NCBI GenBank assembly: GCA_947165345.1
Contig: CAMVAA010000010.1
Location: 1 to 32,798, forward strand
Length of the DNA: 32,798 nucleotides
DNA from: an uncultured Bacteroidales bacterium
GTDB lineage: Bacteria > Bacteroidota > Bacteroidia > Bacteroidales > P3
Direction: 5' to 3'
A program made the position numbers and the translations under genes. A model generated the notes under the pieces. The model was not told where the DNA came from and did no database searches. It saw nothing but the letters and a program-made list of their open reading frames with translations. Of this stretch, positions 1 through 32,798 are shown in pieces (within the stretch, counting starts at the first letter, position 1; each line of letters begins with the position of its first letter).

Positions 1-475
1 GTGGTTCACCGTCAAGGTGAGTGTCACGGTGCTGTCGCAGCCCGCGGCGTTGGTCATGAGATAGGTGGGCTCGGCGGAAGCGGTATAGGTTGTGCCGTGC
101 CACTCAAACTCGTCGCAGGCTGTCATTGTCACAGATCCAGTATTGCTGCGGTTGACTATCAGGTTGAGGGTGATGACACTGTCGCAACCCGCGGCCGTAA
201 GGAGTTCGTGCGTCGGGGTGGAAGTCGATGCAGTGTAGGTAATGCCATCCTGCCAGGTGAGGCTGTCGCAGACCACTTGATTGTCGGTGAGGTGGTAGAC
301 GGGGTTCACGCGCAGGCTGAGGGAGACGACAGAGTCGCACCCCATCACGGTGTGCAACGAATCGACGTATGTATCCTGCACGGTCAGGGTGCGGCTGCCG
401 AAGGTGTAGCTGTCGCCAGCGCAGATGACACCAGAGAGTGTTGTAGAGACCGAGAAGTTTTCCTGTATCTTGTTC
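1..475 (-). repeat. Three 51-residue 'GCDS' repeats near the C-terminus of the giant protein
   Basis: The first Cys of each unit falls at residues 5654, 5705 and 5756, an exact 51-residue period. Units share the pattern C-x-D/S-x-[FW]-x(3)-T/RxYT ... GCDSxVxLxLxVN. They are diverged in sequence, so this is an old protein repeat and not a recent DNA duplication. Such repeats commonly sit just before a C-terminal sorting domain in Bacteroidota secreted proteins, which suggests the protein ends not far outside the window, although further copies are likely. Confidence 0.85.
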
Positions 476-9400: not shown

Positions 9401-12400
9401 CGCAGGTTGGCCAACAGCTGGTTCGTCAGCAGCGGGAGCGAAGTATATTCGGCATCGCCAGCTTCCTTGTACTGCAATTCCACCTGAGAAGCGGCACCGG
9501 TCTGGCACAAAACCGTAGCTGACGAATCGGTCACATTGTCTACCACCAACAGCGGCCGGCTGCAGCCGGTATTGCCACAGTGCTTGTTGAAGACAACAAC
9601 ATTCCTGCTACTGGAGGTATTATAGGAATTGTTCTTTGACAGCTGGATAATCTGGCCATCAGTATAGTTATACAACGTCCGGCTAACACTTTCATCGGTC
9701 ACATAATAATTGGAACTACTTGTATAGGAGCCAGTCGAGTCAAGTACGGTAAGCACAAGGTTGTTGCTTCCATTATAGTCGAACGGATTCTGCAGCGGTA
9801 TCGTCAGCCATCCGTCGACAGGCTGGTTAAGAGCGATTGTGCCGTCAAACACCAGACTCATCTCAGACGGGAGAATCACCGTGCCACTGCCCGAACCGAA
9901 GTAGGAGAGCGCCGTGTGACCCAGATAAATCTTGACATTTCGGTTGTCATCCATAGTCGAGCTTTGTTGGAAACGGATGGTGTCAATCAGGCCGCCGTCG
10001 CCCATCTCTCCTTGCAAGAATATCTGCTGGGAGAACGAATACATGTAATAACTATTGAGCGGGAGAGAGCTGTTTGTATTGCTGTGTGCCGCCGAGTCGC
10101 CGATGACCACTGGGTTGCCGCCCTCGGAGCATTCGGTCATGAACTGCTGCACAGCCGTAAAGCTGCTGACAGCCTCTTCGTCACAATAGGCCTTCATCCG
10201 ATAGTAGTAGAGTGTTTGAGGCTGCAGGCCTTCAATCATGTAGCTGCTCCCCGTCAGGTTGGCGACCGACGTCCACTCGTCGGTGTCGTCGGCGCGATAG
10301 TCGAGTTGCACATTGATGGCGCCGCGCGGGGTACCCCAGCTGATGACGGCAGCCGTGCTGCTCGTCTGGGCGCTCAGGCTGAAGGGATAGACACAGATCA
10401 GGGTGCCGTCGTTCTCCAAGCATCCCATGTCGGTGCGGCCGCCATAGATTCTGATGTTGCCAGCCGCATCCTTGCTGCTACGCATCACCACGTCGTCGGT
10501 GCCGGCATCGATGCAGGGCGAATCCTCCATCAGACGGAAGTCGCCGTCCACGGGCGAAGCGAACAACGGATAGACAAGGAGATCGTTGCTGCCGTCGTTT
10601 TCGGAGGCAAGGTCGATATTGTTGCTGCCAGCATAGCCGCCTTCCACGGCACAGTATCGCATCGAGTCGAGATCCGCTTGCGCCGCCGTGGGGCTGGTCA
10701 AGCTTCTGTTGCCCCAGATGATGCTATTGACGATGGTGTTGTAGTTGTCGTAAGTGCCGTTTTTGCCAATACCGACGACCTCTGTGCTGCCGGTCGTCGT
10801 GTTGTTCACGATGTCGCAGCCGATGAAGGTCGACCTGTAAGTACTCACAGCCCCCGAGGTTGTCGTCGTATTGTTCCACACCATGCAGCTCTCAAAATAG
10901 GAATAGTAGCCATATACCGCAGCCATATAGCCCGAGTCACCCACAAAGAGGCAACGCAGCACGGTGTCGTTCTGGGAATAGAGACCGGAGCCCAGAGCGC
11001 CGCTGTAGAGCGTCTTGTTATAGGAGGCCTCCGTGTTCTCCATACGAATGCCGTTGGAGTAGATACCGCCACCGTAATAGTCGGCCTGGCAATGCGAGAC
11101 CACCGTATTCTCGATGACGGCGCCGTGGTTGGCATAGATACCGCCACCCGAGCTGGCCTTGCTGTTCTCAACGGTGAAGTGGTTGATGCGCAAGCCGCTG
11201 CCCATATAGACACCACCGCCATTTGTGTTGTTTGTACCCTGCACGTTGCCGTTGCGCAGCGTGAAGCCGTCCCAGAGCGTGGCAGTATTGAACTCGCTGC
11301 TTGCCTGCATCAGCACACGCATGCTGTCCTTACCGTCGAGGATGGTGGCATGCTGCACAAAGTCGCGCTGGCTGAGGTCGTAGTCCGCGGCTTCGTTGCC
11401 CGCGAAGCCACCGTAGACATTGATGCCCTCGAAGGCCGTGAACCCACCGTAGTAGGTGCCCTGAGCCACCCAAACCTCCACCGGCTGACGGTAGAAGCTG
11501 CTCGAAGCGGCAGCGGCATCCAGAGCCCATGCGATGCTGCCGGCGGCATCCTCCCACGAGGTGCCGTTGCCGGTGCCATTGGCTGCCACATAGTAGCGGC
11601 TCTGCTGGCGCGGCAGGGTGGTGAACTTCACCGTGCGCCAACGCGACGTGTCGCCCTCGCCGCAGATGCTGCGGGTACGCACCGTATAGGCGGTATTCTG
11701 ACGCAGGCCGGCAAGCGTCTGGCGTTGCTGCAGCTGCATCGAGGTATACTCTTGGTCACCTTCGGCCTTGTATTGCAGCTCCACCGCTTGCCCCGCATTG
11801 GTCTGGCAGACCACCACGGCCGACGAGTCGTTGACGTCGCTCACCGAGAGCAGCGGACGCGCACAACCGGTATTGCCGCAAGTCTTGCTGAAGAGCACCA
11901 CATTGCGATAGCTATTGATGTTGAAATAGTATTCGTTGCTGACAGTTATTTGGCTATAGCCATTGGTATACAAACTCTTGTTATCATTTGTATATTCGAC
12001 ATAGAAACTTGGGGTGTTGTAGTAATAATACGACGGCGAGCTGTCCACAACCGAAAGTACGAGGTTGTCGCTGCCGTTATAGTCGTAGGCCTCCTGAAGG
12101 GGGATGGTCAGCCAGCCGTCTTCGCCGGTGAAGTTCACCAGGCTGTCGTAGACCAGCTCCTGCTCGCCCAGCAAGATAGCCTCATTGCCGTTGGAGTAGC
12201 TGCTGCGGCTGGTGGTGCCCATATAGATTTTCAACCACCGGTTGGCATCCAGCCCGCTGGCGAGCTGGAAGCGCAGTGTGTCAATGATGCCGCCGTTGCC
12301 CAACTCATCTTTCAGGAACAGCTGCTGTGAGAAAGCATAATAGGAATATCTGATATATGTAGGCAGATTCGAGGTTGTGTTGCTTTTGACACTTGTATCG

Positions 12401-15400
12401 CCAACAGCCACCACGCTGCTGCCTTCGGAGCATTCCGTCATAAAGGTCTTCACTGCCGAGTAGCTGCTGAGGTTGTCTTCGCACACGCTCTTCATGCGGA
12501 CCTGATAGGTGGTCTGAGGCTGGAGGTTCTCCAGCATGAGGCTGGTGGCGACGAGGTCTTCGACGACAGTCCACTCGTTAGCACCCTCGGCGCGGTATTC
12601 CAGCTGCGCTTCGGTGGTGTTTGCCGTCATTCCCCATTCGATGTAGGCACCTGTGCCGGCAGCCGTGACATTCAGGCTGTAGGGCGGCACGCAGAAGGTC
12701 TCGCCTTGATTTTCGTAGCATCCGATGTCTTGGTGTTCACCATAGACACGCGGGCTGCCCGCGATGTCCACCATACTGCGCGAGGCGGTGTCGTTGGCGG
12801 CATCGATGCAGGATGACTCGCCCATCAGACGGAAGTCGGCGTCCTCGGGAGACACAAAGTAGGGATAGTTGTATGCGGCATTCGAACCAGCATTCTCAGC
12901 GTGCAGACTGATGTTGCCCTCGCCTTCATAGCCGCCTTCGATGGCGCACCATGTCGCCGTGGCATAGTCTACCTGTTGCGCCGTGCCGGTGCGCGAACGG
13001 TTGCCCCACACGATGGTATTGGTCAGCCTGCCGCTGCCGATAAAGATGACATTGCCCTGACGGGCGGTGTTCATCACCACATCGCAACCCACATACGTGG
13101 CGTTGTTCATCGACAGGGGAGACGAATAGTAGCTGTGGTTGTCGTAGAAGAGGCAGTTCTCCAGATAACTGGACTCGCCGTTCAAGCTGCCATAGGTGGC
13201 GGTGTCGTGCATGATGCGGCACCCGACAATCGTATCCCTAATGCTATAGACCACTCCGTTGTAAGTCACCCTGTTGTTGTTCCACTCCGAGGGGTAGCCG
13301 CAATGGATGAAGTCGCAATTGTAGAAGCGGTTTTCGCTGGAGTAGAGGGCGGCACCGATGTATGACGTGCAGCTGTCGATGACGGTGTTCTTCATCGTCG
13401 AGCCGTTGGAGTTGAAGTACACACCGGCACCGTAAGTGTAGCTGTTGTTTGGATTGCCATAGCAGTTCTCGATACGGCAGTTGTCTATCAGCACCTGGTA
13501 GTTTACATAGATACCTGCACCTTGATAGTTCATACCGTTGCGCAGGGTGAAGCCATCAAAGGCCGCTATCGAGTCTGACCAAGCATTATCGCGGTGGCTA
13601 AGGACCACCACGCGGCGCTGGTGCTGACCGTCAAGGATGGTGGCGTTCTGCACGAAGTTGCGCTGGCTGAGGTCGAAGGAGTCGGGCTCGTTGCCGGCAA
13701 AGCCACCGTAGATATTGACAGGATAACCGATGTAGTAGGCGTTCTCGGCGCTGGTGGTGTCGCCATAGTAGGTGCCGGCGGCCACGCGAATATCGGGGAA
13801 GTAGCCATAGGTTTCATAGGTGGCCGCAGCCATCTCCACAGCGGGGTTGATGTCGGTGAAGGCATCCTCCCACGTGGCACCGTTGCCTTCGCCCGTTGCG
13901 TCGGCTTTGACGTAGATATGCTGGTAGCGTATCGGGGCGGTGGTGAAACTGAGGTAGGTGTACTCTGAGGAGTCCTCTTCGCTGCAGAGGCAGTGCAGAC
14001 GGAGTTGATAGGTGTGGCTGCCCTGCAGGCCAACCAAATTATAGCGCGTAGTGGTGTCTTCAATTCCTGCCAACGGGTGGTAGGTGGCGCCGCCGTCACC
14101 ACTGATTTCGAGCACCGGTGTGCCGTTCAGGCGGCTCAGTTCAATGGCGACGGTATCTTCGCCCGTATAAACCATGAGCATGCGCGGTCTCGGGCAGCTG
14201 CTGAGGTCGCAGTCGCCGTTGAGATAAATCGAAGGACGGTTGGTGGTGGTATAGGGGCCGTAGATGTTGGAATAGTCGGAGCCATAGAAGTAGAGGGTGT
14301 TGAAGTCCATCTGTTGCGTGCGGAAATAGCGATAGCCGCTGGCGGTGTAATCGCTGGAGTCCATCATCACGAGCAACAGGTTCGAATGGCCGTCGTAGTT
14401 GTAGGAAGTCTGCAGGGGTATTTTGACCAAGCCGTAGCTATAGAGCGTGACAGTGCCGTCGAACAGCTCATAGACCTCACCATTCTCCATCGATGTCAGG
14501 CTGTCGACCGTGATGTTGTCCCACTGCGTGGGCATCAGCGCCAACATCCAGTGGCGCGTTTCCTGCGTACCGCTGGTGTAGTAGAAGCCGATGGTGTCGA
14601 TCGAGCGGGCCATACCGCCCATCTCTTCGGCTTTGATGAGCATATAGGATGCCGACACCAGGTAGCGCATATTGATCGGCACCTGCGACCAAGAGCTGGT
14701 ATTCTGGTCGCCGAGGGTCAGCGGCTCGATGGGGTAACGGCAGCCGCTGTTGAACTGCAGCGTGTCGCTGTAGTTGGTAGGCATGCCGCCGCATATTGCG
14801 CGCACACGAATCAAATAATTGGTATATTCGGGCAAGCCGCTGACTTGGTATTCGCTGGTATGTATATCGCTGATGGTTGTCCAGTCCTCGCTGTCGAGGG
14901 TTCTATAACTCAGTTCGTAGGAGTCAACCAACGCTGCCGTCCACGAAGTGTGCACCGTGCCCGGCTCCACCGTCGCCTGGACCATGAAGTTGCTCGGGGT
15001 GAGGCATATCAGCGAGCCGTCGTTCTCGTAGCATCCCATGTCGGGGGCGTCGCCATAGAGACGGGCATTGCCCGCGATGTCGGTGGCAGAGAAGCCGGCG
15101 ATGGAGGTGGCGGCATCGATACAGGCAGAACCGAGGTTGAGGCGGAAGTCGCTATTATCGACATTGACGAAGTTCAGGTAGTTGTGCATGGCATCGTTGC
15201 CGGCATTAAGGGTATCGACGCTGATGTTGCCGGTGCCACTGACCGCGCCGTTGAGGGCGGTGTAGCTGACGCCATTGAACGTGTTTACAAGGTTGGCCGT
15301 CATATAACCGGTCTCGCCGGTGCCGGTATTCCTCAACTCGTTCTGAGCCACAATGCTGTTCACCACTGTGGCGTCAGCAGCGGAAAGCTTGACCGCATTG

Positions 15401-17382
15401 ATATTGCCATAGTCGAACAAGTAGTTGGAAATCACATCGCAGTGGCGCAAGGCACCGCCGTTGCCCAACTCGACCACCGCCGAAGCTGTGGTGTTGAAGT
15501 AGATGAGGCTGTTGTCCATGCGGGCATTCTCCAGATAGATGACGCTTTGGTGGCTGACGCCATACTGGAAGATGCAGTTTTCGACGACGGTCATGACGTT
15601 ATCGGGATCACCCACGACACTCAGCAGGGCATGCCCCGACATGCTGCTATTGACACGGCTGTTTTCGATGACGCAGTTGCGCAGCGTGGTGTAGGCCATC
15701 AGGCTGACGCCGGCGGTGCTTTCCTGAGACTGGCCACCGCCGATGAGGAAGCCGTCGAACGATGATGCCGTGGCGGCGGTGAAGGGCTCGTTCTGCACGA
15801 GGCAGGCACCGTTCCAGCTGCCGTCGAGGATGGAGTAGTGGGCCTGCCAGTCGCGTTGCGAGATGTCATAGTTGGCAGGCTCGTTGCCCACGAAGCCTCC
15901 GTAGAGGTGCTGCGAGGGGTAGACGGTGTAGTTGTCGTAGTAGGTGCCTTCGGCCACCCAGATGTCGGGGTGGTTGTTGTAGAGACGCCCTTGCTCATCG
16001 GCGCATTGCTGGGCCTCTGACACCGAGTGGAAAGCCGTAGCCCACGAGCGGCCGTCGATGGTGTCGCTTTTGGACTGGTTGACATATATCCTGTCCATGA
16101 GGCCGCGGGCGGGCGTGAACATGATTTCGCGGAAGACCGAGGTGTCCTCGCCTTCGCAGAGGCCGCCCACATGGGCTTCATATATCGTTCCGTTGACAAG
16201 GTTATTGATTACCAAGAAGTTATCGGTGGTGGCCACCCGTGTCGCCGAGTTGTCGCCGTAGCCCTGCTGGCCGTACTCGATGAGGTACTGGACGGCACCG
16301 GTGCTGTTCCACGAGAGGCGCACAGTGGTTGAATCCAGCGCTTCGGCCACCGGCATCGGGGCGAGGCAGGTGGGGCAGTGGAAATAGATGCTGTCGAAGA
16401 ATTCGCTGGAGAGGTCCACCTCGCTGAAATTGCGCCACAGCACCGTGTCGCCATCGGCGTCGAGGATGGTCAGGTCGAGTGCGCCGTACCACAAGTTGGT
16501 GTTGCCTTGCAACACCTTGAGGTACATCTTCTGCGGGGAATGGGTCACCTCCTGATAGTGCAACTGGTAGTTGGTGGGCAAGTCGGGGAAGGCGATGGTG
16601 TCCATCGCCACGCCGGACTCATGGCACAGCAGGATTTTCCAGCCACCGAAAGCATTATTGTTCTGGTCGCGCAGGACGAAATACCAGGTGCAACCCGCGG
16701 CGGTGTCGGGCGTGAGGAAGCTGCGCATGATGTGGCGGCTCGTGTCGCCCTCGCCGCAGACGGCGCGCAGATAGACATCGTAGGGCGTGTTGGCCGACAG
16801 ATTACTCAGGCTGAGCGTGTTGCCGCTTTGCACAGTGGCGGCATCCACTGTTGGTTCGAATCCATGGGGTCCCCAGAGTGTCTGCCACTGCACGCTGTCA
16901 CGCTGGTTCCACACCACGTCGAGGCCACTCGCCGTGGCCGCTGCCAAGCGCAACCCTGTGGGCTTGAGGCACGAGGGGCAGTTGCTGACAAAGGAGCCGA
17001 GTTCCATCGTCTGGCCTTGGTCACTATAGGAGTACCCCAAATCGCCCGCATTGATGGCGTAGAGCACATTGTCGTCGTCGTCGGTGATGGTGAACGAGCA
17101 CTCGTCGTCGTAGTAACCCTTCGTCCACACCAAGCGCACCGAGTCGGCGGCCAGATGCATGGTATCCACGCCAGCGGAGCCACTGCCGAGCGAGATGTTG
17201 GCCACCAGCGCGTCGTACTGGTAGACCGACAGCACGGCGTTGTTCCATCCGTCGCCGTACTGGTCTTGCATCGTGATGGTTACGCGGCAGGAAGGCGGCG
17301 TGTTCTGCGCCCTCAGGGGCACCAAAGCAAACATCATGGTCATCAACATGATGACAGCGAAGAGGGAATACTTCTGTTTCAT
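1..17382 (-). CDS. Giant modular secreted surface protein (probable T9SS cargo), C-terminus outside the window
   Basis: The ATG at 17380-17382 opens a frame that stays open to base 1 (at least 5,794 codons); spot checks near 13000, 12000, 8500, 5700 and 3000 keep the same frame. Residues 1-25 are a signal peptide ending LVPLRAQ. Approximate order after that: a YGDGWN-type domain (30-137); FN3 (139-230); a second similar domain; FN3 (339-422); beta-helix 1 (428-784); three FN3/jelly-roll/FN3/beta-helix units (793-3039); beta-helix 5 (3059-3421); two FN3-like domains; nine CARDB-like domains (3624-4773); PPC-like and TIG/IPT-like domains; a SprB-like stretch with GGTAPYTYSW (about 5190); a DUF7619-like domain beginning SQDPNEIKGPEGY (about 5260); Ig-like and cadherin-like domains; and 51-residue repeats to the edge. 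Beta-helix modules end in SPCIDAG...DMGCYE motifs typical of choice-of-anchor Q domains. An adhesin or matrix role is inferred. No catalytic motif is visible. The C-terminal sorting signal lies outside the window. Confidence 0.9.
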   Translation of the reverse strand, partial: MKQKYSLFAVIMLMTMMFALVPLRAQNTPPSCRVTITMQDQYGDGWNNAVLSVYQYDALVANISLGSGSAGVDTMHLAADSVRLVWTKGYYDDECSFTITDDDDNVLYAINAGDLGYSYSDQGQTMELGSFVSNCPSCLKPTGLRLAAATASGLDVVWNQRDSVQWQTLWGPHGFEPTVDAATVQSGNTLSLSNLSANTPYDVYLRAVCGEGDTSRHIMRSFLTPDTAAGCTWYFVLRDQNNNAFGGWKILLCHESGVAMDTIAFPDLPTNYQLHYQEVTHSPQKMYLKVLQGNTNLWYGALDLTILDADGDTVLWRNFSEVDLSSEFFDSIYFHCPTCLAPMPVAEALDSTTVRLSWNSTGAVQYLIEYGQQGYGDNSATRVATTDNFLVINNLVNGTIYEAHVGGLCEGEDTSVFREIMFTPARGLMDRIYVNQSKSDTIDGRSWATAFHSVSEAQQCADEQGRLYNNHPDIWVAEGTYYDNYTVYPSQHLYGGFVGNEPANYDISQRDWQAHYSILDGSWNGACLVQNEPFTAATASSFDGFLIGGGQSQESTAGVSLMAYTTLRNCVIENSRVNSSMSGHALLSVVGDPDNVMTVVENCIFQYGVSHQSVIYLENARMDNSLIYFNTTASAVVELGNGGALRHCDVISNYLFDYGNINAVKLSAADATVVNSIVAQNELRNTGTGETGYMTANLVNTFNGVSYTALNGAVSGTGNISVDTLNAGNDAMHNYLNFVNVDNSDFRLNLGSACIDAATSIAGFSATDIAGNARLYGDAPDMGCYENDGSLICLTPSNFMVQATVEPGTVHTSWTAALVDSYELSYRTLDSEDWTTISDIHTSEYQVSGLPEYTNYLIRVRAICGGMPTNYSDTLQFNSGCRYPIEPLTLGDQNTSSWSQVPINMRYLVSASYMLIKAEEMGGMARSIDTIGFYYTSGTQETRHWMLALMPTQWDNITVDSLTSMENGEVYELFDGTVTLYSYGLVKIPLQTSYNYDGHSNLLLVMMDSSDYTASGYRYFRTQQMDFNTLYFYGSDYSNIYGPYTTTNRPSIYLNGDCDLSSCPRPRMLMVYTGEDTVAIELSRLNGTPVLEISGDGGATYHPLAGIEDTTTRYNLVGLQGSHTYQLRLHCLCSEEDSSEYTYLSFTTAPIRYQHIYVKADATGEGNGATWEDAFTDINPAVEMAAATYETYGYFPDIRVAAGTYYGDTTSAENAYYIGYPVNIYGGFAGNEPDSFDLSQRNFVQNATILDGQHQRRVVVLSHRDNAWSDSIAAFDGFTLRNGMNYQGAGIYVNYQVLIDNCRIENCYGNPNNSYTYGAGVYFNSNGSTMKNTVIDSCTSYIGAALYSSENRFYNCDFIHCGYPSEWNNNRVTYNGVVYSIRDTIVGCRIMHDTATYGSLNGESSYLENCLFYDNHSYYSSPLSMNNATYVGCDVVMNTARQGNVIFIGSGRLTNTIVWGNRSRTGTAQQVDYATATWCAIEGGYEGEGNISLHAENAGSNAAYNYPYFVSPEDADFRLMGESSCIDAANDTASRSMVDIAGSPRVYGEHQDIGCYENQGETFCVPPYSLNVTAAGTGAYIEWGMTANTTEAQLEYRAEGANEWTVVEDLVATSLMLENLQPQTTYQVRMKSVCEDNLSSYSAVKTFMTECSEGSSVVAVGDTSVKSNTTSNLPTYIRYSYYAFSQQLFLKDELGNGGIIDTLRFQLASGLDANRWLKIYMGTTSRSSYSNGNEAILLGEQELVYDSLVNFTGEDGWLTIPLQEAYDYNGSDNLVLSVVDSSPSYYYYNTPSFYVEYTNDNKSLYTNGYSQITVSNEYYFNINSYRNVVLFSKTCGNTGCARPLLSVSDVNDSSAVVVCQTNAGQAVELQYKAEGDQEYTSMQLQQRQTLAGLRQNTAYTVRTRSICGEGDTSRWRTVKFTTLPRQQSRYYVAANGTGNGTSWEDAAGSIAWALDAAAASSSFYRQPVEVWVAQGTYYGGFTAFEGINVYGGFAGNEAADYDLSQRDFVQHATILDGKDSMRVLMQASSEFNTATLWDGFTLRNGNVQGTNNTNGGGVYMGSGLRINHFTVENSKASSGGGIYANHGAVIENTVVSHCQADYYGGGIYSNGIRMENTEASYNKTLYSGALGSGLYSQNDTVLRCLFVGDSGYMAAVYGYYSYFESCMVWNNTTTTSGAVSTYRSTFIGCDIVNNTTTGSTEVVGIGKNGTYDNYNTIVNSIIWGNRSLTSPTAAQADLDSMRYCAVEGGYAGSNNIDLASENDGSNDLLVYPLFASPVDGDFRLMEDSPCIDAGTDDVVMRSSKDAAGNIRIYGGRTDMGCLENDGTLICVYPFSLSAQTSSTAAVISWGTPRGAINVQLDYRADDTDEWTSVANLTGSSYMIEGLQPQTLYYYRMKAYCDEEAVSSFTAVQQFMTECSEGGNPVVIGDSAAHSNTNSSLPLNSYYMYSFSQQIFLQGEMGDGGLIDTIRFQQSSTMDDNRNVKIYLGHTALSYFGSGSGTVILPSEMSLVFDGTIALNQPVDGWLTIPLQNPFDYNGSNNLVLTVLDSTGSYTSSSNYYVTDESVSRTLYNYTDGQIIQLSKNNSYNTSSSRNVVVFNKHCGNTGCSRPLLVVDNVTDSSATVLCQTGAASQVELQYKEAGDAEYTSLPLLTNQLLANLRQNTTYTVRTRAICGAGDTSLWRSVSFTTLPKRLSRYYVTSQGTGDGSSWSNASSDLNWVLATAEANYNIYHTPLEVWVAEGTYYGGFTVKEYVDVYGGFAGNEPENYNPDQRNVTAHATILDGQNERTVITQSAAFTHGTALWDGFTVRNGRSTGNGGGILMRDGMKVNNFKVMNCVAQTGGGIYACANNVSASITNTIVTGDSATSNGGGIYATRTDMDNVLVSNNASRGSGGGIYLQSNCNLRNVTVVNNYAYTTSSNQGGIYISSTYSNYIYNSILWGNRNNYGPDQTNTGAYYYNCAIEGLATANTAGNYLLNAENEGVFGPKFVAPTEGAGCAYSGGDWHLQQGSFCINRGNAGTVNEVADLDGNTRVQQDTVDMGCYETSYEGIQMPQYGTIIYVKAQATGTGDGTSWDNAMDDINMAQRVAAMTNIRTVWVAEGIYYGSPDANQGVFKVVPSVNVYGGFEGNEAEDYDLLLRDLENHATILDGGNMYRVLYQASDITNTNQYVEWNGFTLRNGNATNASNGTNGGGAYLRRGIRLVNCVVSGNTAVSGGGVYIAGSYSSETISGKKYYIFYSRLENCKIVDNNATSYGGGVYLSSALVSNCLVANNTSYYSGGGIYTTSYGHVVNATIVANTSQNSNGGGFYGSSSYSMLANSVVWGNKKGYYVNNVYGSCKYGHNAVEGGITDSLLVINVESSNDGIDMSKFYVRFNDPQHGDYTLHVTSPCINYGDSLMSYYLPATDLAGNPRMVGVVDLGAYETDVNTSCPSVVGVAANNVTSSTATVSWKPMGEESSWSVRVLQDESDLDSTFTATDTVVVFDGLLLNRTYTVYVRALCDSGGVSLYSIPVNFTTDCDESLLTPLDEFASMMPENNTQFYTQALDFAWTSMPMATSYDFYFWKAGDSEPTTPTLRGLTTAGVSGYNVPSFANNHGSYFYWKVVAWNECISRTSDVMTLQEAPLPNLHVSGFTVPDRVAANQTITVEWTVVNDGQGSTPPGATWNDYIWVTGHNGVGGGFLYDVDEQLLATVPNLQSLAPGESYTNSVNVQLPQDYIGGYYFFVFADQYSANNINYAPTGDTVMALPYTPSNTGSPYPYLQSQNTSYPSWYVHSQMEETVETDNFFYIQKTILPPPTPNLHVTNVGHPLNAYSGDTITILWQVTNEGDAAALGSWSDAVYLSEEEELDYSTAILMGTSYHDGTLNMESNYSDSIRAVLPLQLGGTYHVFVSTDIQNSVYESIYEADNVEESAQTINVIMSPPADLEVMTIMMDTDLVSAKATYTVTYEVINVGARAISNGHWRDLAYLSADPQFNLQNACRIGSRYIYGRSLGIDESYTETMTITIPDSINDARYLYIMTDADDDVFEYTNEDNNVLRKATPLQISLPDLQTVWVSTLQEVVANQPITLVWRVQNVGQGRLNGRRVNSGLTFYGQTLVQHNEYLTLDAGEYVEYTDTLTLPCRNADAVTVYAKADMNYSVYETNENNSTGYDLTVLSPDLSASNLTILDTLWSGTTATASWTLTNSGQADVDAVVTDRFYLGNANSYNAADSMCYVTRQVTLAAGQSIVETFDIAIPNGVQGQYYVHQIVNADGDVCEGVNEASNRAVSGVSEIMLSPYPDLVVSDIDVPSSLNIGESFTINYAVSNQGTGNLVNKAVVTRFYASRYTTFSLNTATLIGDDNARMTIATGDEANYSAPVRIPTTVTSGLYYIYAVVDATDNVYEYVYENNNTTHSQQIMVNVYPLDLAVYAVETSDVLDWGGTYTVDVQVKNLSQVPTLANYWSDQVFLSQDDVLQTSDVRLSNVVRQTVVPGDSSYTVSFMFKMPYGYTSPAYLIALADANGNNPDINSANNILVQPVAVNSVPTADLAVTSVALLDEQVFSGQDARIAYTITNVSEQAIENASWTDKVFLSSNNIYEASDVEVGTTTKRGMTLAPNATYTDTALFRVPLPQNGKVYLIVRANSGNSFYESNTDNNISAQECVVTLPQPGDLIVSDIAMDGNMISGDTLQVSWSVKNIGSNTLSGNGLRSLVYLSSNMVFDANDRLLGSVGSNYINIIPGDDIEQHLSARVSGLPEGEYYVIVKTDVSNVFNEVNDDNNTTCSAYPFTLTVRNLPFNTPVNDVLYNNLVNDYKLNVDTNTDETVRIHLQSADETSGAVNMLYVTHNTIGSSLGYDFASVDQLTHNPELYIPATEAGYYGVNLQGATPTAASQQVVIRADILPFELREVSPQQGGNTGRVTLMLTGSRFTPDMEVSLTNAAGATIRPATFTYDSYYKAYATFDLTGQAVGLYDVHVVKSGEDTASLHDGFRIVTGTPENLYTNLIFPQSPRPNRVVVAMLEYGNTGNTDIVDPVVTISSIANTPISLTTSGLSDNNTLLNIPLQVSDDMVGVIRPGVSGYVNVYVNTTDNLTFSVSRDEVAETVQPTAPAVRYTEITAVARQAEGCVVGNDGIATVEFPIELSASDYRFRWTTVSGVLVDTNCTATGLASGGYRVRVMEAADTNVNVYEDYVYIDKIDTCERLRVSISSICHTDVCSTPSVESYATATGGTAPYTYSWPNRLYTVTGSGRYSIVCRVVDAEGRVAYGTKELYLKGLECSQDPNEIKGPEGYNEDVRYVAATEKMNYTIGFENDPDFATAPATRVSIVYPIPDGQNIASVRLSDFGFGDHVFSVPANSTTYSKRLDVSSDLGIWVDVTAGIDYQNNRVTWIFQSIDPATGFEPASSQMGFLPVNDSLGRGEGYVSFLIEPKTGRTTGDTVVVDATIVFDDNAPIATNKWKNTFDAVAPTSTLQASLSPTDSNYCFFSFSATDDNGGSGVDHVELYVSQNEGNYEYFTSVPADSSLRFTLVDGILYRFASVAVDHVGNREELKAVPDTVINNNTAPTDILLTASSFRENAQPATVIGRLTTIDNDITLPFSYELVEGDGDADNGMFAIADGRLVTTSLYNCDGRSQYAVRVRTTDITGLSFEKSFVLNKIQENFSVSTTLSGVICAGDSYTFGSRTLTVQDTYVDSLHTVMGCDSVVSLSLRVNPVYHLTDNQVVCDSLTWQDGITYTASTSTPTHELLTAAGCDSVITLNLIVNRSNTGSVTMTACDEFEWHGTTYTASAEPTYLMTNAAGCDSTVTLTLTVNH
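3065..6510 (-). repeat. Array of nine CARDB-like Ig-fold domains in the giant protein
   Basis: Nine successive units of about 110-160 residues (roughly residues 3624-4773) each open with a (P)DL-x-V-x(2)-V motif (examples: PNLHVTNVG, PADLEVMTI, YPDLVVSDI, TADLAVTSV, PGDLIVSDI). Each continues with a W-x-V-x-N-x-G strand pair and a V-x-LS 'fLS' strand, and closes with a (V/Y)-x-E-x(4)-NN turn. This is the pattern of CARDB domains, all-beta cell-adhesion-related modules that usually form extended stalks. The units are clearly related but not near-identical. Confidence 0.8.
8265..15006 (-). repeat. Three ~770-residue super-repeats: FN3 / jelly-roll / FN3 / beta-helix
   Basis: Homologous Cys residues that start each unit lie at residues 793 (CLTPSNF), 1564 (CVPPYSL) and 2330 (CVYPFSL), giving periods of 771 and 766 residues (about 2.3 kb). 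Each unit runs FN3, a roughly 190-residue all-beta domain with a YNYDG/YDYNG-S-NL motif, a second FN3 with an ICGxGDTS-type motif, and a beta-helix beginning near the GTG-x-G-x-SW motif and containing VWVAxGTYYGG and VYGGFAGNE. Units 2 and 3 are closest to each other. The third unit is followed directly by a fifth beta-helix without intervening FN3 domains. Confidence 0.85.
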
Positions 17383-17551
17383 GGTTATTGTGTGTTTATT
17401 ATACTTGTTTTTCTTCTTCGTTTTTGCTCGCGCGAGGGGGTGAAAAGATAGTAAACGCCATTCGGAATACATGGATATTCAGCACCATAATACTCCTCAG
17501 AAAACTATATTTCAATAGATTAACACCCAGTCGACCGCTCGCTTCCAGTTA

Positions 17552-27479: not shown

Positions 27480-29285
27480 TCAGTCGACCAACACAACCTG
27501 CAGGCGGTTGCCCAACTTGACCATATATGCACCTTTGGCGACAATGAAGTTGTCTTTGCCGCTCGATACAGTAGTCAATACCTCATTACCATTTGCATCG
27601 AGAATCTGTATGGGGTCGCCTTCGGTGGCAACAACCACAATACGGCCGTCCTCGACATAGATAGCACCGAGAGTCTTCGAGTCCTCGCCTTGGTCCTCTA
27701 TGGTATCTGTACTTTGATCCTCTGTAGCGTCAGGTGTATCCGCCTTTTGGGTCTCTGTAGCGCTCGGTGTATCCTCTTTCTGCTTATCCGGGTCAACAAA
27801 AGTGCCTACGTTGCGTGACTCAAAGGCTCCGTTGATTCCAGAACTGCCGGTTCTAAGCCAACGCTCCACAATCTCCTCTGTCTCGGGAGTACGCAGAATG
27901 AGCATGCCCATTCGGTTATTCTCCTGCGGCTCGTAGTCCGTAATGCCGCCCAACGGCCTTACAAGGAGTCGTTTAGCATTGACGCCGTACTGTTTGACAA
28001 TCCTGTTGTATACCGCATTGCAACGCTGCTCGGAGAGCCATATATTGTGTTTTACGGTACCCGTAGCCGAGTCGGCAGCACCAAGCAGGAAGAACTCGAG
28101 CGAGTCGTCGAGGCGGTTGACCTCGCGAGCGAAACTCTGCAAACGACGGTCAGCATTGTAGTCTATCTCGTACCGGTCAAGCTGGAAGTATACCACCACA
28201 GCCGGCAGACCGTGCGACTCATTGAAGTCAAGCAACTCGGCCAACATGTTCTCAGGCTGTCTGTAGTTCTTCATGTTGCGGTTGATGTCGTCCAACAAGT
28301 TGGCCAGACTGTCATACTTACGCATAAGGTCCTCGCGGTTGCCGTTCTTCTCCACTATGAGGTCCACCAGCGAATCCTGGGCTTGCGCAAGACGCTTCAC
28401 TTCGACCTCGCGGTTTTCCAGCTGCATCTGCGAGCCTACCGTCTGGAACTCATGGAAGGTCTTCACCCTTCTCGACTCGCGAGCATGCATATTATACTTG
28501 GTAATCTCGTTTATGAAGTTGACCTTCAAACATACAGAAAACGAGGGAATCAAGTCAAAAATTGAGCGGGCATTGTTGTACGGCGACCAGTCCCATGTCG
28601 ACTCCGATCCGAAAAGCTCGGCCGCAGCGTTGACGGTGAAATACTCCGAGAAAACATACTCCAATCCCAACCCACCGCTGAAGGCAAGTTCGCGGTTGTA
28701 TCGCATAGTGCCAACCTCGTATGTGTCGGTAAATGGATTTCGCTGTTCGCCATACAGGACCGACATGCCAAGACCCAGCGGCATAAAGACATGCCACCTG
28801 TTATGCTTGCCCCTCTCATATCCGCCAAGGAAGTTGGTCCAGTCGAAAATCACAAAGCCCATTGCCGAAAACGCATGGGCATGGTACAAATAGTAATAGT
28901 CGTTGCTCGACTGGTCCCAAACACCGGTCGGCGTATCATCTGCCTTATTGATGAACGGCTGCTTGCCGTAAGTGGAGTGACCGTCGACATTGAAAAGCGA
29001 AAACCTCAGCGAGATAGCCACATCAGGAATAATCCATTTGCCGATTTCAACTCGCCCATTGAAGTTCAACTTATTGCGTCTTGCGTCAGACTCCAACTCA
29101 TTACCAATAAACGTCTGAATACCACCGCCGACATTGAGATACCAGTTGTCAAAAGGCGATGCTATAAGATATAGCAGCGTGTCTCTGTCTACACCAAGGG
29201 CAAAGCCGCGTCTCTGGAAGTTCTGTGCCGTCACCGTCATTCCTGATGCCAGCAGCAATAGCAGTACCAATAATTTCCTCTTCAC
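27480..29285 (-). CDS. OmpA-family outer-membrane protein with T9SS-sorting-like C-terminal module
   Basis: The start is GTG at 29285, giving a signal peptide (MKRKLLVLLLLLASGMTVTAQ). The 601-residue product has a probable barrel (22-258; for example NWYLNVGGGIQTFIGNE), a charged helical section (268-350), an OmpA-like peptidoglycan-binding domain (360-468; GAADSATGTVKHN, LSEQRCNAVYNRIV, ENNRMGMLIL), a Thr/Asp/Glu-rich linker (about 495-540) and a 60-residue beta module (541-601; PIQILDANGNEVL, GAYMVKLGN). That last module matches the pattern of T9SS type A sorting domains or the related DUF6383. It lies 21 bp after the tyrosine kinase gene, so it is probably co-transcribed with the polysaccharide export genes and may link the export machinery or outer membrane to the cell wall. 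Confidence 0.85.
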   Translation of the reverse strand: MKRKLLVLLLLLASGMTVTAQNFQRRGFALGVDRDTLLYLIASPFDNWYLNVGGGIQTFIGNELESDARRNKLNFNGRVEIGKWIIPDVAISLRFSLFNVDGHSTYGKQPFINKADDTPTGVWDQSSNDYYYLYHAHAFSAMGFVIFDWTNFLGGYERGKHNRWHVFMPLGLGMSVLYGEQRNPFTDTYEVGTMRYNRELAFSGGLGLEYVFSEYFTVNAAAELFGSESTWDWSPYNNARSIFDLIPSFSVCLKVNFINEITKYNMHARESRRVKTFHEFQTVGSQMQLENREVEVKRLAQAQDSLVDLIVEKNGNREDLMRKYDSLANLLDDINRNMKNYRQPENMLAELLDFNESHGLPAVVVYFQLDRYEIDYNADRRLQSFAREVNRLDDSLEFFLLGAADSATGTVKHNIWLSEQRCNAVYNRIVKQYGVNAKRLLVRPLGGITDYEPQENNRMGMLILRTPETEEIVERWLRTGSSGINGAFESRNVGTFVDPDKQKEDTPSATETQKADTPDATEDQSTDTIEDQGEDSKTLGAIYVEDGRIVVVATEGDPIQILDANGNEVLTTVSSGKDNFIVAKGAYMVKLGNRLQVVLVD

Positions 29286-29306: not shown

Positions 29307-31784
29307 TTATCGTTGTTTGTTGTTTCTTTTCGTTTTGTCGTCATCTTGCTCCGGCTTATCGTCACCATAGCCATAACCGTAGCCGTAGCCATAACCATAG
29401 CCGTAGCCATAACCGTAGCCATAGCCGTATCCGTACCCATAGCCATAGCCGTATCCGTATTTACGCTCAAGCGGCATAAGCTTGCGATAATGGACGTCGT
29501 TAAGTAGCAGCGCCATGTTGGGATAGGTATGCTGCTGGTACATCTCCTCAATGTTGGCAAGCATACGCTTGTCGACCTTACCATAGCGGATAACGAAGAT
29601 AGTATTGTCAACCAAGTGCTTTATCACGTCGGTATCGACCACGAGGCCCGACGGCGCGGTGTCGAAAATGATATAATCATAATGTTCGCGCAGTCGCGCA
29701 ACCAGTTCGTCGAGACGTCCATTGCCGAGCAACTCAGTCGGGTTGGGCGGTAACGGGCCGGTGAAGATGCTGTCCACTCCACGGCTCACAATGTCGTGCT
29801 TGACAATCGACTCCCAGTCCTCTACCTTGCCAACAAGATAGTTGGAAAGGCCGACATGGCGACGCGAGTAGAAACGTCGTGTCAGCGAACCACGTCTCAA
29901 GTCGAGGTCGAGCAGAATAACCCGTTTACCCGCAATACCAAGGCTGGCCGCGAGGTTGGACGATATGAACGTCTTACCCATGCCTGCCATGAGCGACGTA
30001 ATCATATAAACCTTCGCAACGCCTTCGCCAGCGTCGCCTCCAAGGAAGTCAACTTTGGCCCTCAGCAGACGGAACGACTCTGTCATCGTATCGTTGTCGC
30101 TGCCGGACACCACTATGTTGCTGTCGTCATCCTTGCGCCGTGCAGGTATCTCACACAGGAACGGGGCCGTGGTGCCGCGCATGACATCGTTATGGTATTT
30201 CACCTTCGTGTCAAAGAGCCTACGCAAGAAGAACACAGCTACCGGCACCAGCAGACCGAATATCAGGCCCATGGCGGTAGTGCGATTCTCGTCCGGCGCT
30301 ATAGGATTGCGGTTTATGCGGGCCGGATCCAAAATCTTGCCGTTGGGCTCTATAGAAGGCTGGCTTATCAGTAGCTCCTCGCGACGGCTCAGCAGGTGGA
30401 GGTACAGCTCCTCCTTGATTTTCTGCAGTCGTTCAATGTTTTCAATATACAACTGCTGCTGCGGCACCTGACTCATCTTGTTGGCGGCCGTGTTGGCGGC
30501 CGAACTGACACTGGAGATTCTCTCCTGCAGAACACCGACATATACCCCAAGCAGGGTGTTCATGTCGCGCCTGAGCTTGGCAAGCTCGCCTTTCTTTTGC
30601 CTCACCATGGGATTGTTTTGGTTCTGGTAGTTGCCGAGTTCAAGAACTAAGTCATTGTGGGTGGCTATAAGGCGCGAGATGTGCTCGTCGTCAATGCCCA
30701 CGTTGCCGGGTATGATGTGCGCATCCTGCCCATCCTCGTTGACCTGCATCAGGTAGCGGGCTGTGGAAAGCTGCTTGTTGAGGCGCTCAATCTCCTCCGA
30801 CGACTGAATACTGGCGGCCAGGTAGCTCTGACCGAACGACGAGATGTCAAGCAGGTTGTTCCTCCGCTTGAAGTCGGCCAAGGCGTTCTCCTGTATGCCA
30901 AGGTCCGAATGCAGAAGAGACAGACGTTCGTTGATGTAGTCGTAAGTCTCCGCTATGATGCGCCTCTTGTCCCTGATGGCGTCTTCGTTGTATATTCTTA
31001 TCGCTTCGTTGATAACTTCGGCGGCACGTATGGGCGACGCATCGTGAATCGCAATGTTGACGATGGTATTGAAGTCGTCATTGCGCGTAACAACCATGGC
31101 GGAGCGATAGTAGTCGGCCGTAGCATTGAGGCTGCGGCGCGAGACGTGAATCGGGGTGCCATAATACGACGGGGTCAAGAACCACGTCTTGTGGGCCACC
31201 ACACGGCCAAAGGGCATGGCCACCGTATCTTCAAACTCCGCCGTCACCGGCTCATATCCATCCACGGTCAGCGTAATCCGGTTGTCGTCCACTACTGAAG
31301 CGTCGAATTCCACCGGCTTCTCGTCGCCTTCGTCGACAAACTCCATCTTGAACGGGGACTCGCCATAGAGGTCTTTCACTCGGTTCACCAGTCGGGTCTT
31401 TGTGGTATAATCCACATTGAGGTCGAGGTTCTTGGCCACTTCTAACATGGCCGACTTCGAACTCAGTATCATCATCTCGTTGTTGATCGAGCTGTTGTAG
31501 AGCGACTTGTTGGCAAACATGCTCTTGATTGACGCCTCGCGCATCGTGCTGCCGTCGCTGCCGCTACCGGTTGACGAACCCTTGATGAGCAGACGGGCAC
31601 TGCTCTCGTAGACGCGGTTCTGGTGCCGCACCCAGTAGCCGGACACCAGCGCTCCTATGGCTCCACACAGCAGCAGCCAATGCAGGTTACGCATCACGAT
31701 AACTAACACGTCCTTTACGTGAACCTTCGGTCCGGTCTTCTGGTCCAAGAAGGAGGTCTCTGAGTTTTTAGTCTCTTCTGCCAT
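29307..31784 (-). CDS. Wzc-like polysaccharide co-polymerase / tyrosine autokinase
   Basis: The 825-residue protein has a Wzz-type periplasmic region between membrane segments at about 35-52 and 504-521. A coiled-coil GNVR-like part (about 285-475) precedes the second segment. The C-terminal BY-kinase domain has Walker A SLMAGMGKTF (597-606), Walker A' VILLDLDLRRG (622-632) and Walker B YIIFDTAP (704-711). The kinase autophosphorylates a C-terminal Tyr cluster to control chain length and export of capsule or exopolysaccharide. Here that cluster is a (Tyr-Gly)16 tract (776-807) followed by an 18-residue charged tail. It is downstream of the Wza-like gene (36-bp gap). Confidence 0.95.
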   Translation of the reverse strand: MAEETKNSETSFLDQKTGPKVHVKDVLVIVMRNLHWLLLCGAIGALVSGYWVRHQNRVYESSARLLIKGSSTGSGSDGSTMREASIKSMFANKSLYNSSINNEMMILSSKSAMLEVAKNLDLNVDYTTKTRLVNRVKDLYGESPFKMEFVDEGDEKPVEFDASVVDDNRITLTVDGYEPVTAEFEDTVAMPFGRVVAHKTWFLTPSYYGTPIHVSRRSLNATADYYRSAMVVTRNDDFNTIVNIAIHDASPIRAAEVINEAIRIYNEDAIRDKRRIIAETYDYINERLSLLHSDLGIQENALADFKRRNNLLDISSFGQSYLAASIQSSEEIERLNKQLSTARYLMQVNEDGQDAHIIPGNVGIDDEHISRLIATHNDLVLELGNYQNQNNPMVRQKKGELAKLRRDMNTLLGVYVGVLQERISSVSSAANTAANKMSQVPQQQLYIENIERLQKIKEELYLHLLSRREELLISQPSIEPNGKILDPARINRNPIAPDENRTTAMGLIFGLLVPVAVFFLRRLFDTKVKYHNDVMRGTTAPFLCEIPARRKDDDSNIVVSGSDNDTMTESFRLLRAKVDFLGGDAGEGVAKVYMITSLMAGMGKTFISSNLAASLGIAGKRVILLDLDLRRGSLTRRFYSRRHVGLSNYLVGKVEDWESIVKHDIVSRGVDSIFTGPLPPNPTELLGNGRLDELVARLREHYDYIIFDTAPSGLVVDTDVIKHLVDNTIFVIRYGKVDKRMLANIEEMYQQHTYPNMALLLNDVHYRKLMPLERKYGYGYGYGYGYGYGYGYGYGYGYGYGYGYGYGDDKPEQDDDKTKRNNKQR
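29364..29459 (-). repeat. (Tyr-Gly)16 coding repeat in the kinase tail
   Basis: Sixteen consecutive Tyr-Gly dipeptides cover 96 bp (residues 776-807), flanked by Lys 775 and Asp 808. The codons vary: Tyr is TAT 8 times and TAC 8 times; Gly is GGC 9, GGT 4, GGA 2 and GGG 1. The DNA is therefore an imperfect 6-bp repeat encoding a perfect peptide repeat. Confidence 0.97.
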
Positions 31785-31820: not shown

Positions 31821-32573
31821 CTATTTGTTCTTGAGGTACGTGCCCAGTGTGAGTATCAGCGTTGCCGACGAAACCAGCGTCGACAAGAAAGTCGCCCAGT
31901 AGGTAACCTCCTGACGCATCGTGCCGCCGTTCACACCGTCGAGTATGATGAAGTCGTTCTGCTGCATCATGAAAAAGGGGTCGTTGAATACAGCACTTGA
32001 CCGCGGGTCAAGGTAGCGCATCACCATGCGCCCGTTCACCTCGCGCATCACCGCTATCCGGTCGCGTCTGGTGTAGTTGTCCAGACCGCCCATCAACGCC
32101 AAAGCCTCAAGGAAAGTGCATCGCTCATTGGCCACGTTAATCACCTTGCCTCCCCCGTTGCCGAGCACGAATATCTTGAACGTCTTGAACCTCACCATGA
32201 CATACGGGTCATCAAGATAGTCGCCCTGCTCCAGCATACGCTTCAGGATTTCCTGAACACGCATCCTCGTGAATCCCGCCACATGCAACTTGCCAACCAC
32301 CGGAAACTCAATGTCGCCGTTGACGTCCACCAGATACACGTTGCCTTCAAGCCCCACATTGAACGGCGCCGCCATCTCCTGATTGGGCTGCGACGACGAG
32401 ACTCTGATTATCAGTTCATCATAGGGAGCAATGCGCGCCTCAAAACGGTCCTCCAGCTCTATCTGGCTCCCCTGTGTCATGTCCTGCAGGTAGTCAACCC
32501 TACGGCTCGTGACACACGACGTGGCAAGCAGCGCAAAAAGCACTATTGTCAGTATGTTCGGTTTGATGCCCAT
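31821..32573 (-). CDS. Wza-like outer-membrane polysaccharide export lipoprotein
   Basis: The 250-residue product is a lipoprotein (signal MGIKPNILTIVLFALLATSC, lipidated Cys 20). The poly-export domain (about 40-125) includes RIAPYDELIIRVSS and YLVDVNGDIEFPVVGKL-type strands; a SLBB-like segment follows (about 133-215; FVLGNGGGKVINV, TFLEALALMGG). A C-terminal hydrophobic segment (about 229-247) is the usual end of short Bacteroidota homologues. It forms the outer-membrane channel for capsule or exopolysaccharide and partners with the Wzc-like kinase encoded next. It is the first gene of the operon. I could not find a convincing TAnnTTTG promoter; the best candidate (TAAATATG, 32618-32611) has one mismatch. 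Confidence 0.92.
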   Translation of the reverse strand: MGIKPNILTIVLFALLATSCVTSRRVDYLQDMTQGSQIELEDRFEARIAPYDELIIRVSSSQPNQEMAAPFNVGLEGNVYLVDVNGDIEFPVVGKLHVAGFTRMRVQEILKRMLEQGDYLDDPYVMVRFKTFKIFVLGNGGGKVINVANERCTFLEALALMGGLDNYTRRDRIAVMREVNGRMVMRYLDPRSSAVFNDPFFMMQQNDFIILDGVNGGTMRQEVTYWATFLSTLVSSATLILTLGTYLKNK

Positions 32574-32630: not shown

Positions 32631-32645
32631 GGGGGGGGGGGGGGG
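32631..32645. repeat. G15 homopolymer upstream of the polysaccharide export operon
   Basis: Fifteen consecutive G on the plus strand (C15 in the direction of the operon) lie 57-72 bp before the Wza-like start codon. The tract covers the place where a -33 element would be for a -7-like box at 32618-32611. Homopolymers this long are prone to slippage. Confidence 0.85.
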
Positions 32646-32666: not shown

Positions 32667-32758
32667 GATTTTTCATTAGGCAAGCCCTCAGTCCATATAA
32701 CGATAGACTCAAAATCAAGCCACCTGCAAAAGCCTCTCTGCAAGCACCCTCTCTACCC

Positions 32759-32798
32759 CCTCTCTGGGTCCTCTCTGGGTCCTCTCTGGGTCCTCTCT
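32759..32798. repeat. 11-bp tandem repeat reaching the window edge
   Basis: The unit CCTCTCTGGGT is repeated about 3.6 times head to tail up to the last base, so the true copy number is unknown. Partial look-alikes (CCTCTCTGCA, CCCTCTCTAC) lie just upstream at 32733-32756. No open frame of note covers it. Confidence 0.85.

Follow-up and report, generated by a model that had tools for sequence, protein, structure and literature searches.

How bacteria measure the length of the polysaccharides they export is an old question, and it is raised in a particular form by a stretch of DNA of 32,798 nucleotides from an uncultured Bacteroidales bacterium (contig CAMVAA010000010.1; the window), in which the gene of a bacterial tyrosine kinase (BY-kinase) ends in a perfect alternation of tyrosine and glycine codons. 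What is such a tail for? Our preferred answer, which we hold to be rather probable, is that the tract serves a Wzc-type autokinase as its phosphate-accepting tail, the long ladder of tyrosines at every second residue (YxY) working as an extended ratchet. New here are a genus whose kinase tail is usually an extreme ladder without gaps, the class-wide spread of such ladders and the scrambling of their codons.

The longest run of Tyr-Gly (YG) units in the window was found to be exactly 16 units long, at 29364..29459 on the minus strand, confirming the coordinates of the perfect (Tyr-Gly)16 tract described in an earlier note on this DNA. It forms residues 776–807 of an open reading frame (ORF) of 825 aa at 29307..31784 (minus strand), which encodes a Wzc-like BY-kinase and polysaccharide co-polymerase (PCP). 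The C-terminal end of the kinase reads RK-(YG)16-DDKPEQDDDKTKRNNKQR, where the residues following the ladder (808–825; 29310..29363, minus strand) are charged, acidic ones first; across 84 tracts of at least 8 units, the net charge of the 8 residues after the ladder was −2.2 on average, with a range from −6 to +5. Beyond residue 700 the kinase has 22 tyrosines, 16 of them in the tract. The tract codons (TAC 8, TAT 8, GGC 9, GGT 4, GGA 2, GGG 1) include both Tyr codons and all four Gly codons, as had been claimed, in proportions similar to those of the remaining gene (TAT 15, TAC 14; GGC 25, GGT 10, GGA 7, GGG 2).

The earlier assignment to the BY-kinases was borne out by Pfam and NCBIfam scores, motifs, a PDB match and the fold. 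The Pfam domains GNVR (PF13807, 34.8 bits at a cut-off of 27.7) and AAA_31 were both matched above cut-off, and the Wzz domain below it (20.4 of 25.5 bits). The NCBIfam model TIGR01007 (eps_fam, polysaccharide biosynthesis tyrosine autokinase) scored 133.9 bits against a cut-off of 108.05, with narrower equivalog models, such as PRK11519 (Wzc), far under their own cut-offs. The nearest solved sequence was that of E. coli Wzc (PDB 7nhr, E 3.2e-39); solved relatives of the two-part type were also matched (2ved, 3bfv and 4jmp). An AlphaFold model of residues 541–825, built with 13 unaltered relatives, had a mean pLDDT of 69.7, with the kinase domain folded and residues 766–825 below 50, so that the tail is predicted to be unstructured. 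Searching with this model in Foldseek gave the kinase domains of Wzc (9exo, the best match, E 7.5e-15) and Etk (3cio, E 9.1e-15) as top matches. Hydropathy peaked at residues 26 and 502, in keeping with two predicted membrane helices around a large periplasmic part, with the kinase in the same chain.

Motifs were compared in an alignment of 190 rows, comprising 24 of paralogue group A of the genus (including the window copy, L001), 7 of group B, 89 from the order, 34 from the class and 36 from other classes. Walker A (SLMAGMGKT, residues 597–605; 29970..29996) contains the catalytic Lys604, Walker A' (VILLDLDLRR, residues 622–631; 29892..29921) Asp628 and Walker B (YDYIIFDTAP, residues 702–711; 29652..29681) Asp708, all encoded on the minus strand, and each of these three residues was present in 190/190 aligned rows. 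Asp626 of Walker A' was found in 24/24 group-A and 7/7 group-B rows; elsewhere in order and class the position is mostly Gly. Residues 569–575 (ESFRLLR; 30060..30080, minus strand) are what we take to be the ExxRxxR motif, which has a role in oligomerisation. Its E, R and R are retained in 24/24 group-A rows. The second Arg is replaced by His or Gln in 7/7 group-B kinases (L002, L027–L032), and the assembly of the two paralogues may be different.

By sequence, motifs, fold, architecture and neighbours, the window kinase is a Wzc-family (PCP-2a) BY-kinase. It has the domain order, two predicted helices, Walker A/A'/B, ExxRxxR motif, YxY tyrosine tail and Wza-like neighbour of E. coli Wzc, and the C-terminal tyrosine cluster of the family is present in the form of the 16 Tyr at residues 776–807. 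In contrast, E. coli K-12 Wzc ends in YQDYGYYEYEYKSDAK, its longest uninterrupted YxY run holding no more than 3 Tyr. Two-part BY-kinases such as CapB/CapA of Staphylococcus aureus resemble the window kinase in their kinase fold and in a tail that would be placed in the neighbour's active site, but consist of separate polypeptides with a shorter Tyr tail, as described for them in PMC8285477. For Ptk1 of Porphyromonas gingivalis, a fragment of residues 541–821 is reported to autophosphorylate (PMC4082711).

Ladders among relatives and the spacing of their tyrosines

A kinase match was found in 89/99 genomes of the genus. The tails of part of these matches were examined, and removal of duplicates and unusable tails left 87 distinct ones, 82 of which carry (YG)8 or more, over two diverged kinase groups. 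Where the earlier note had considered that close homologues might end in ordinary short tyrosine clusters and that the tract might be an artefact, 52/53 same-family tails of the genus were found to reach at least (YG)8 (median 14, from 4 to 24 units overall, with 46/53 at 11–16 units). The more distant genus tails reach this length in 30/34 cases, with a median of 13; L272, L274, L275 and L277, the remaining four, have irregular Tyr clusters at the end. An idealised (YG)n is, in this genus, the usual form of the tail. Named relatives are uncultured Bacteroidales or Bacteroidetes, with the rectum of sheep, the reticulum of goats and horse faeces mentioned as sources; one of them is Candidatus Colimorpha. 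The host is probably a gut bacterium.

For the order outside the genus, one tail per genome (the best match, except for G156) was taken from 89 of the 98 other matching genomes, 119 having been searched. (YG)4 or more was present in 54 of these tails, (YG)8 or more in 38, and a Tyr ladder of at least 4 (Tyr at every second residue, four times or more in a row) in 76. The class outside the order, represented by all 34 genomes with a match, yielded (YG)4 or more in 20 tails and a Tyr ladder of at least 4 in 25. Outside the class, a non-random sample of the phylum (36/68 matching genomes, the 29 best-scoring ones and 7 hand-picked) contained 1 tail with (YG)4 or more and 20 with a Tyr ladder of at least 4. 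The earlier description of a kinase tail "replaced" by the ladder was right as to the ladder and wrong as to the replacement, the YG ladder being the usual tail in the genus and in much of the order. The lone (YG)15 outside the class (L204, genome G202) has far less scrambled codons with a long TATGGA run, and may be a recent expansion. Among titles and abstracts of the open-access literature, no earlier description of YG ladders in BY-kinases was found, which is weak evidence of absence.

Judged from these sequences, the most constant tail feature in Bacteroidia is Tyr at every second residue, and this spacing is seen even without the Gly spacer. When 49 Bacteroidia tails with no more than three YG units were analysed, 229 Tyr pairs were counted at lag 2, compared with 163.5 ± 7.5 in same-cluster shuffles (0/1000 as high), and pairs were depleted at lag 1 (57 vs 174.8) and lag 3 (74 vs 152.6). 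Where ladder tyrosines are separated by a residue other than Gly, it is most often Ser, Lys, Asn or Arg. With YxY required on either side of a ladder position, the centre of YxYx?xYxY was Tyr in 865/883 cases and the centre of YxY?YxY was Gly in 935/1007, which leaves the Tyr phase broken in 18/883 and the Gly phase in 72/1007; with Gly-defined flanks, the corresponding counts were 15/913 (Tyr) and 22/815 (Gly). The phase-break counts under both flank definitions imply that Tyr is retained somewhat better than Gly. A YxY ratchet, an idea absent from the earlier note, explains the every-second-residue spacing better than the mere number of sites. Bacteroidia offer a natural rung series on one kind of scaffold, from 2 rungs (L055) to 24 (L231).

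Scrambled codons and ladder length

The earlier note had held that the peptide is maintained by selection and not just by recent slippage, a view upheld by codons that are mostly scrambled between relatives and by the avoidance of identical neighbouring hexamers. Recent slippage was rejected as the origin of the present tract, since adjacent hexamers are identical in 0/15 cases in the window (2.4 expected) and rarely so in relatives. Comparison with the closest relative found (L004) showed 15/28 aligned codons to be equal, or 13 when aligned from the other end, at a shuffled value of 13.3. Among nine pairs of relatives, six differed from the shuffled value by no more than 2.5 codons and three were clearly more alike; in the pair L021/L022, the codon strings are nearly identical (23/24).

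Across 82 genus tracts, 99 adjacent identical hexamers were counted against 222.7 ± 12.4 expected (0/500 shuffles as low), with 74/82 tracts below their own expectation and 7 above it. Codon-pair bias was rejected as the cause by a shuffle preserving codon pairs within each tract, which gave 49 identical neighbours vs 101.5 ± 7.9 for 38 genus tracts and 60 vs 82.3 ± 6.7 for 47 tracts outside the genus, with 0/400 shuffles as low in either set. A pooled first-order Markov codon null, the least favourable one, revealed a weaker effect in the latter 47 tracts (60 vs 71.4 ± 7.6). General codon alternation was likewise rejected: ten coding stretches from the window showed none, nor did 87 kinase domains ahead of the tract. 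In a test for same-codon neighbours, z was −1.0 to 1.5 for Gly/Tyr outside the tract (extremes over six amino acids −1.8 and 1.6), and −10.2 (Gly) and −7.7 (Tyr) inside it. Identical hexamers were in excess at lags 3 and 6, which may reflect 18-bp block duplications or a by-product of the lag-1 avoidance. Codon identity in the tract was about 0.50–0.52 end to end and 0.67 at the best offset, compared with 0.64 for Tyr/Gly outside it (60 pairs), a weak signal confounded by length changes; the idea that synonymous codons turn over faster inside the tract than outside it was dropped.

Scrambling may be caused either by selection for repeat-breaking codons or by loss of unstable tracts with identical neighbours, and both causes imply that the peptide is maintained against slippage, not by slippage. 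For mononucleotide runs, codon choice selected for DNA stability has been described (PMC1378130). The scrambled codons would be an independent sign of a protected length and a clear case of a coding repeat with a broken-up DNA repeat, and the ladder looks like a maintained working part.

The earlier note had also raised length variation in 6-bp steps as a means of tuning. Differences between species by whole YG units were indeed observed, whereas the codon scrambling speaks against simple slippage by 6 bp as the tuning device. The longest ladder seen, (YG)24 in L231 (genome G334), contains an exact nine-unit (54-bp) tandem duplication, recognised by eye and possibly an assembly matter.

An extended ratchet and its rivals

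According to work on E. coli K30 Wzc, the tail enters the active site of the neighbouring subunit, with the Tyr two residues earlier held in a pocket (PMC11986026, PMC8285477). Phosphorylation is described there as a ratchet proceeding from C to N, and the octamer as falling apart after the fourth phosphate (PMC11986026). The lone gap in the YxY pattern, at N711, leaves the tail disordered unless a Tyr is placed there, and N711Y fills the missing rung and restores capsule in the 3YE mutant (PMC11986026). A single tail Tyr is reported to be neither essential nor sufficient (PMC8285477). A review describes the number and arrangement of tail Tyr as poorly conserved across species, and chain length as set by a phosphorylation threshold together with dwell times (PMC12220298).

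Ring, neighbour-site tail, waiting Tyr and stepping are taken over from E. coli Wzc in the ratchet that we propose for the window kinase. Eight subunits would form a ring, each tail lying in the active site of its neighbour. While one Tyr is phosphorylated, the Tyr two residues before it would wait in the pocket; each shift would then carry the tail two residues further, starting at its C-terminus and working inward. As the ladder alternates Tyr and Gly without a gap, each step would have its waiting Tyr, giving about 16 steps vs about 4, or about four times more. Throughout successive steps, the window ladder has Tyr at i and i−2, the pattern of a YxY ratchet, and a perfect (YG)n would be a gap-free extension of the E. 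coli YxY pattern; sliding should be easier with Gly, the smallest residue, as spacer. Many steps would be needed before the ring fell apart, and the number of rungs would thereby govern the duration of the polymerising state and, through it, chain length. Resetting of the tail would fall to a phosphatase; a low-molecular-weight protein tyrosine phosphatase (LMW-PTP) is encoded elsewhere in the genome. Bacteroidia would thus have lengthened the ladder and gained steps before release.

The ratchet idea implies that the number of rungs matters, and the E. coli tails in the cited papers have few of them. We suggest, tentatively and with more doubt than conviction, that Bacteroidia possess a counter in which the number of YxY rungs determines how many steps the export ring can go through before it fails, and thereby the length of the polymer, while alternating synonymous codons guard against miscounting. 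Shortening of the ladder would make the counting idea directly testable.

Several points weigh against a ratchet in the window kinase. In the sequence alignment, the E. coli pocket residue Glu675 corresponds to Met741 of the window, in a column that is Met/Leu in 22/24 group-A rows and mostly hydrophobic elsewhere, and Pro536 corresponds to Ala600, with Pro in 20/24 group-A rows. As neither Glu675 nor Pro536 is kept in the window, the stepping is only inferred, and, the Glu675 column being mostly hydrophobic in the class, the pocket, if present, must work by different chemistry. The E. coli ring fails at four phosphates, and sixteen may be more acceptors than are used. Unit numbers of 14 and 16 occur at 98% kinase identity (L260, L254), and such variation between close relatives implies that the exact number is perhaps unimportant. 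Ladders shorter than 4 are present in 13/89 order and 9/34 class tails of Bacteroidia. In the 36 tails of other classes, lag-2 Tyr pairs were not enriched (160 vs 165.4; clusters were cut at the last Tyr, which undercounts YG, the YG numbers given above coming from a separate counting), which implies that every-second-residue spacing is no general rule of BY-kinases. In all lag statistics, sequences that share ancestry are counted as if they were independent draws. Finally, phosphorylation of the ladder tyrosines is a prediction from sequence.

Some of these observations would suit a reservoir of acceptors without stepping, in which total charge would set ring stability gradedly and the YG units would present Tyr in a flexible, exposed manner. 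The non-conserved Glu675 pocket residue, the Tyr-rich tails without every-second-residue spacing in other classes of the phylum and the differing unit number of close species are in line with it, as are the reports that in E. coli the extent of phosphorylation matters and not any single Tyr (PMC11986026, PMC8285477). We nevertheless consider it unlikely: a reservoir needs no exact spacing of two, and the Bacteroidia tails lacking YG are still enriched at lag 2 and depleted at lags 1 and 3.

Less probable again is a self-associating tail, whose Tyr/Gly content would drive reversible clustering of the export complex, in a sticker-and-spacer or amyloid-like manner, until switched off by phosphorylation. 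The tail is predicted to be unstructured, and synthetic GYGYGYG peptides, prepared at 500 µM, are reported to form amyloid-like fibrils in vitro, although in the peptide set described GYGYGYG has the higher critical concentration (PMC10510724). Self-association asks for aromatic composition and not for spacing, and leaves ladders with Lys, Arg, Asn or Glu spacers unexplained.

That the tract is a hypermutable contingency repeat, with slippage-driven length changes diversifying capsule output, appears more improbable still. The range of 4–24 units in the main genus family and the exact 54-bp tandem duplication in L231 point in this direction; however, identical adjacent hexamers are avoided in genus and wider tracts, which breaks up the DNA repeat, and 46/53 main-family tails are confined to 11–16 units. 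An assembly artefact, for which the draft state of the genome (124 contigs, 74% complete) might speak, was rejected and is, like neutral low-complexity drift, hardly tenable for the family, since comparable tracts recur in dozens of independently assembled genomes, and again in a second paralogue, and their codon strings mostly differ.

Gene neighbourhood and own genome

Directly upstream of the kinase, at the start of a putative operon, lies the gene of a Wza-like polysaccharide export protein (31821..32573, minus strand; PF02563, 53.8 bits). The kinase is followed after 21 bp by an OmpA-like protein (27480..29285, minus strand), whose PF00691 score of 24.6 bits is just below the cut-off of 27.2 and for which all OmpA/Pal models remained under their cut-offs. 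L037 has the same gene order as the window, with an OmpA-domain gene, above cut-off, in the corresponding place; in the more distant L045, the gene following the kinase has no Pfam match.

The host's own genome contains three PF02563 matches, one near each of its two kinases. The second of these, a distant paralogue on contig C29 (L002, 32% identity), has a Wza-like gene close by and a (YG)11 tail. One LMW-PTP gene was found in a search for phosphatases of the LMW type; it lies on contig C53 (genome G000), unlinked to the kinase, unlike in E. coli K-12, where wzb adjoins the kinase gene.

Ahead of the export operon, 15 consecutive C (minus-strand reading) were observed at 32631–32645, 58–72 bp upstream of the Wza-like start. 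This run is the only homopolymer of at least 8 G/C or at least 9 A/T in the window and is possibly a length-variable switch of the operon; G/C runs of at least 8 occurred in 5/46 upstream stretches, namely those of the window, L037, L013 and L009/L038, the last two apparently from one genome. At the very end of the contig, likewise upstream of the export operon, a tandem repeat with an 11-bp unit (CCTCTCTGGGT) is present in 3.6 copies (32748–32798). At the opposite end, positions 1–17472 (minus strand) are occupied by an ORF continuing beyond the contig edge, 5824 aa or longer, whose repeated blocks give it, by eye, the look of a giant surface protein.
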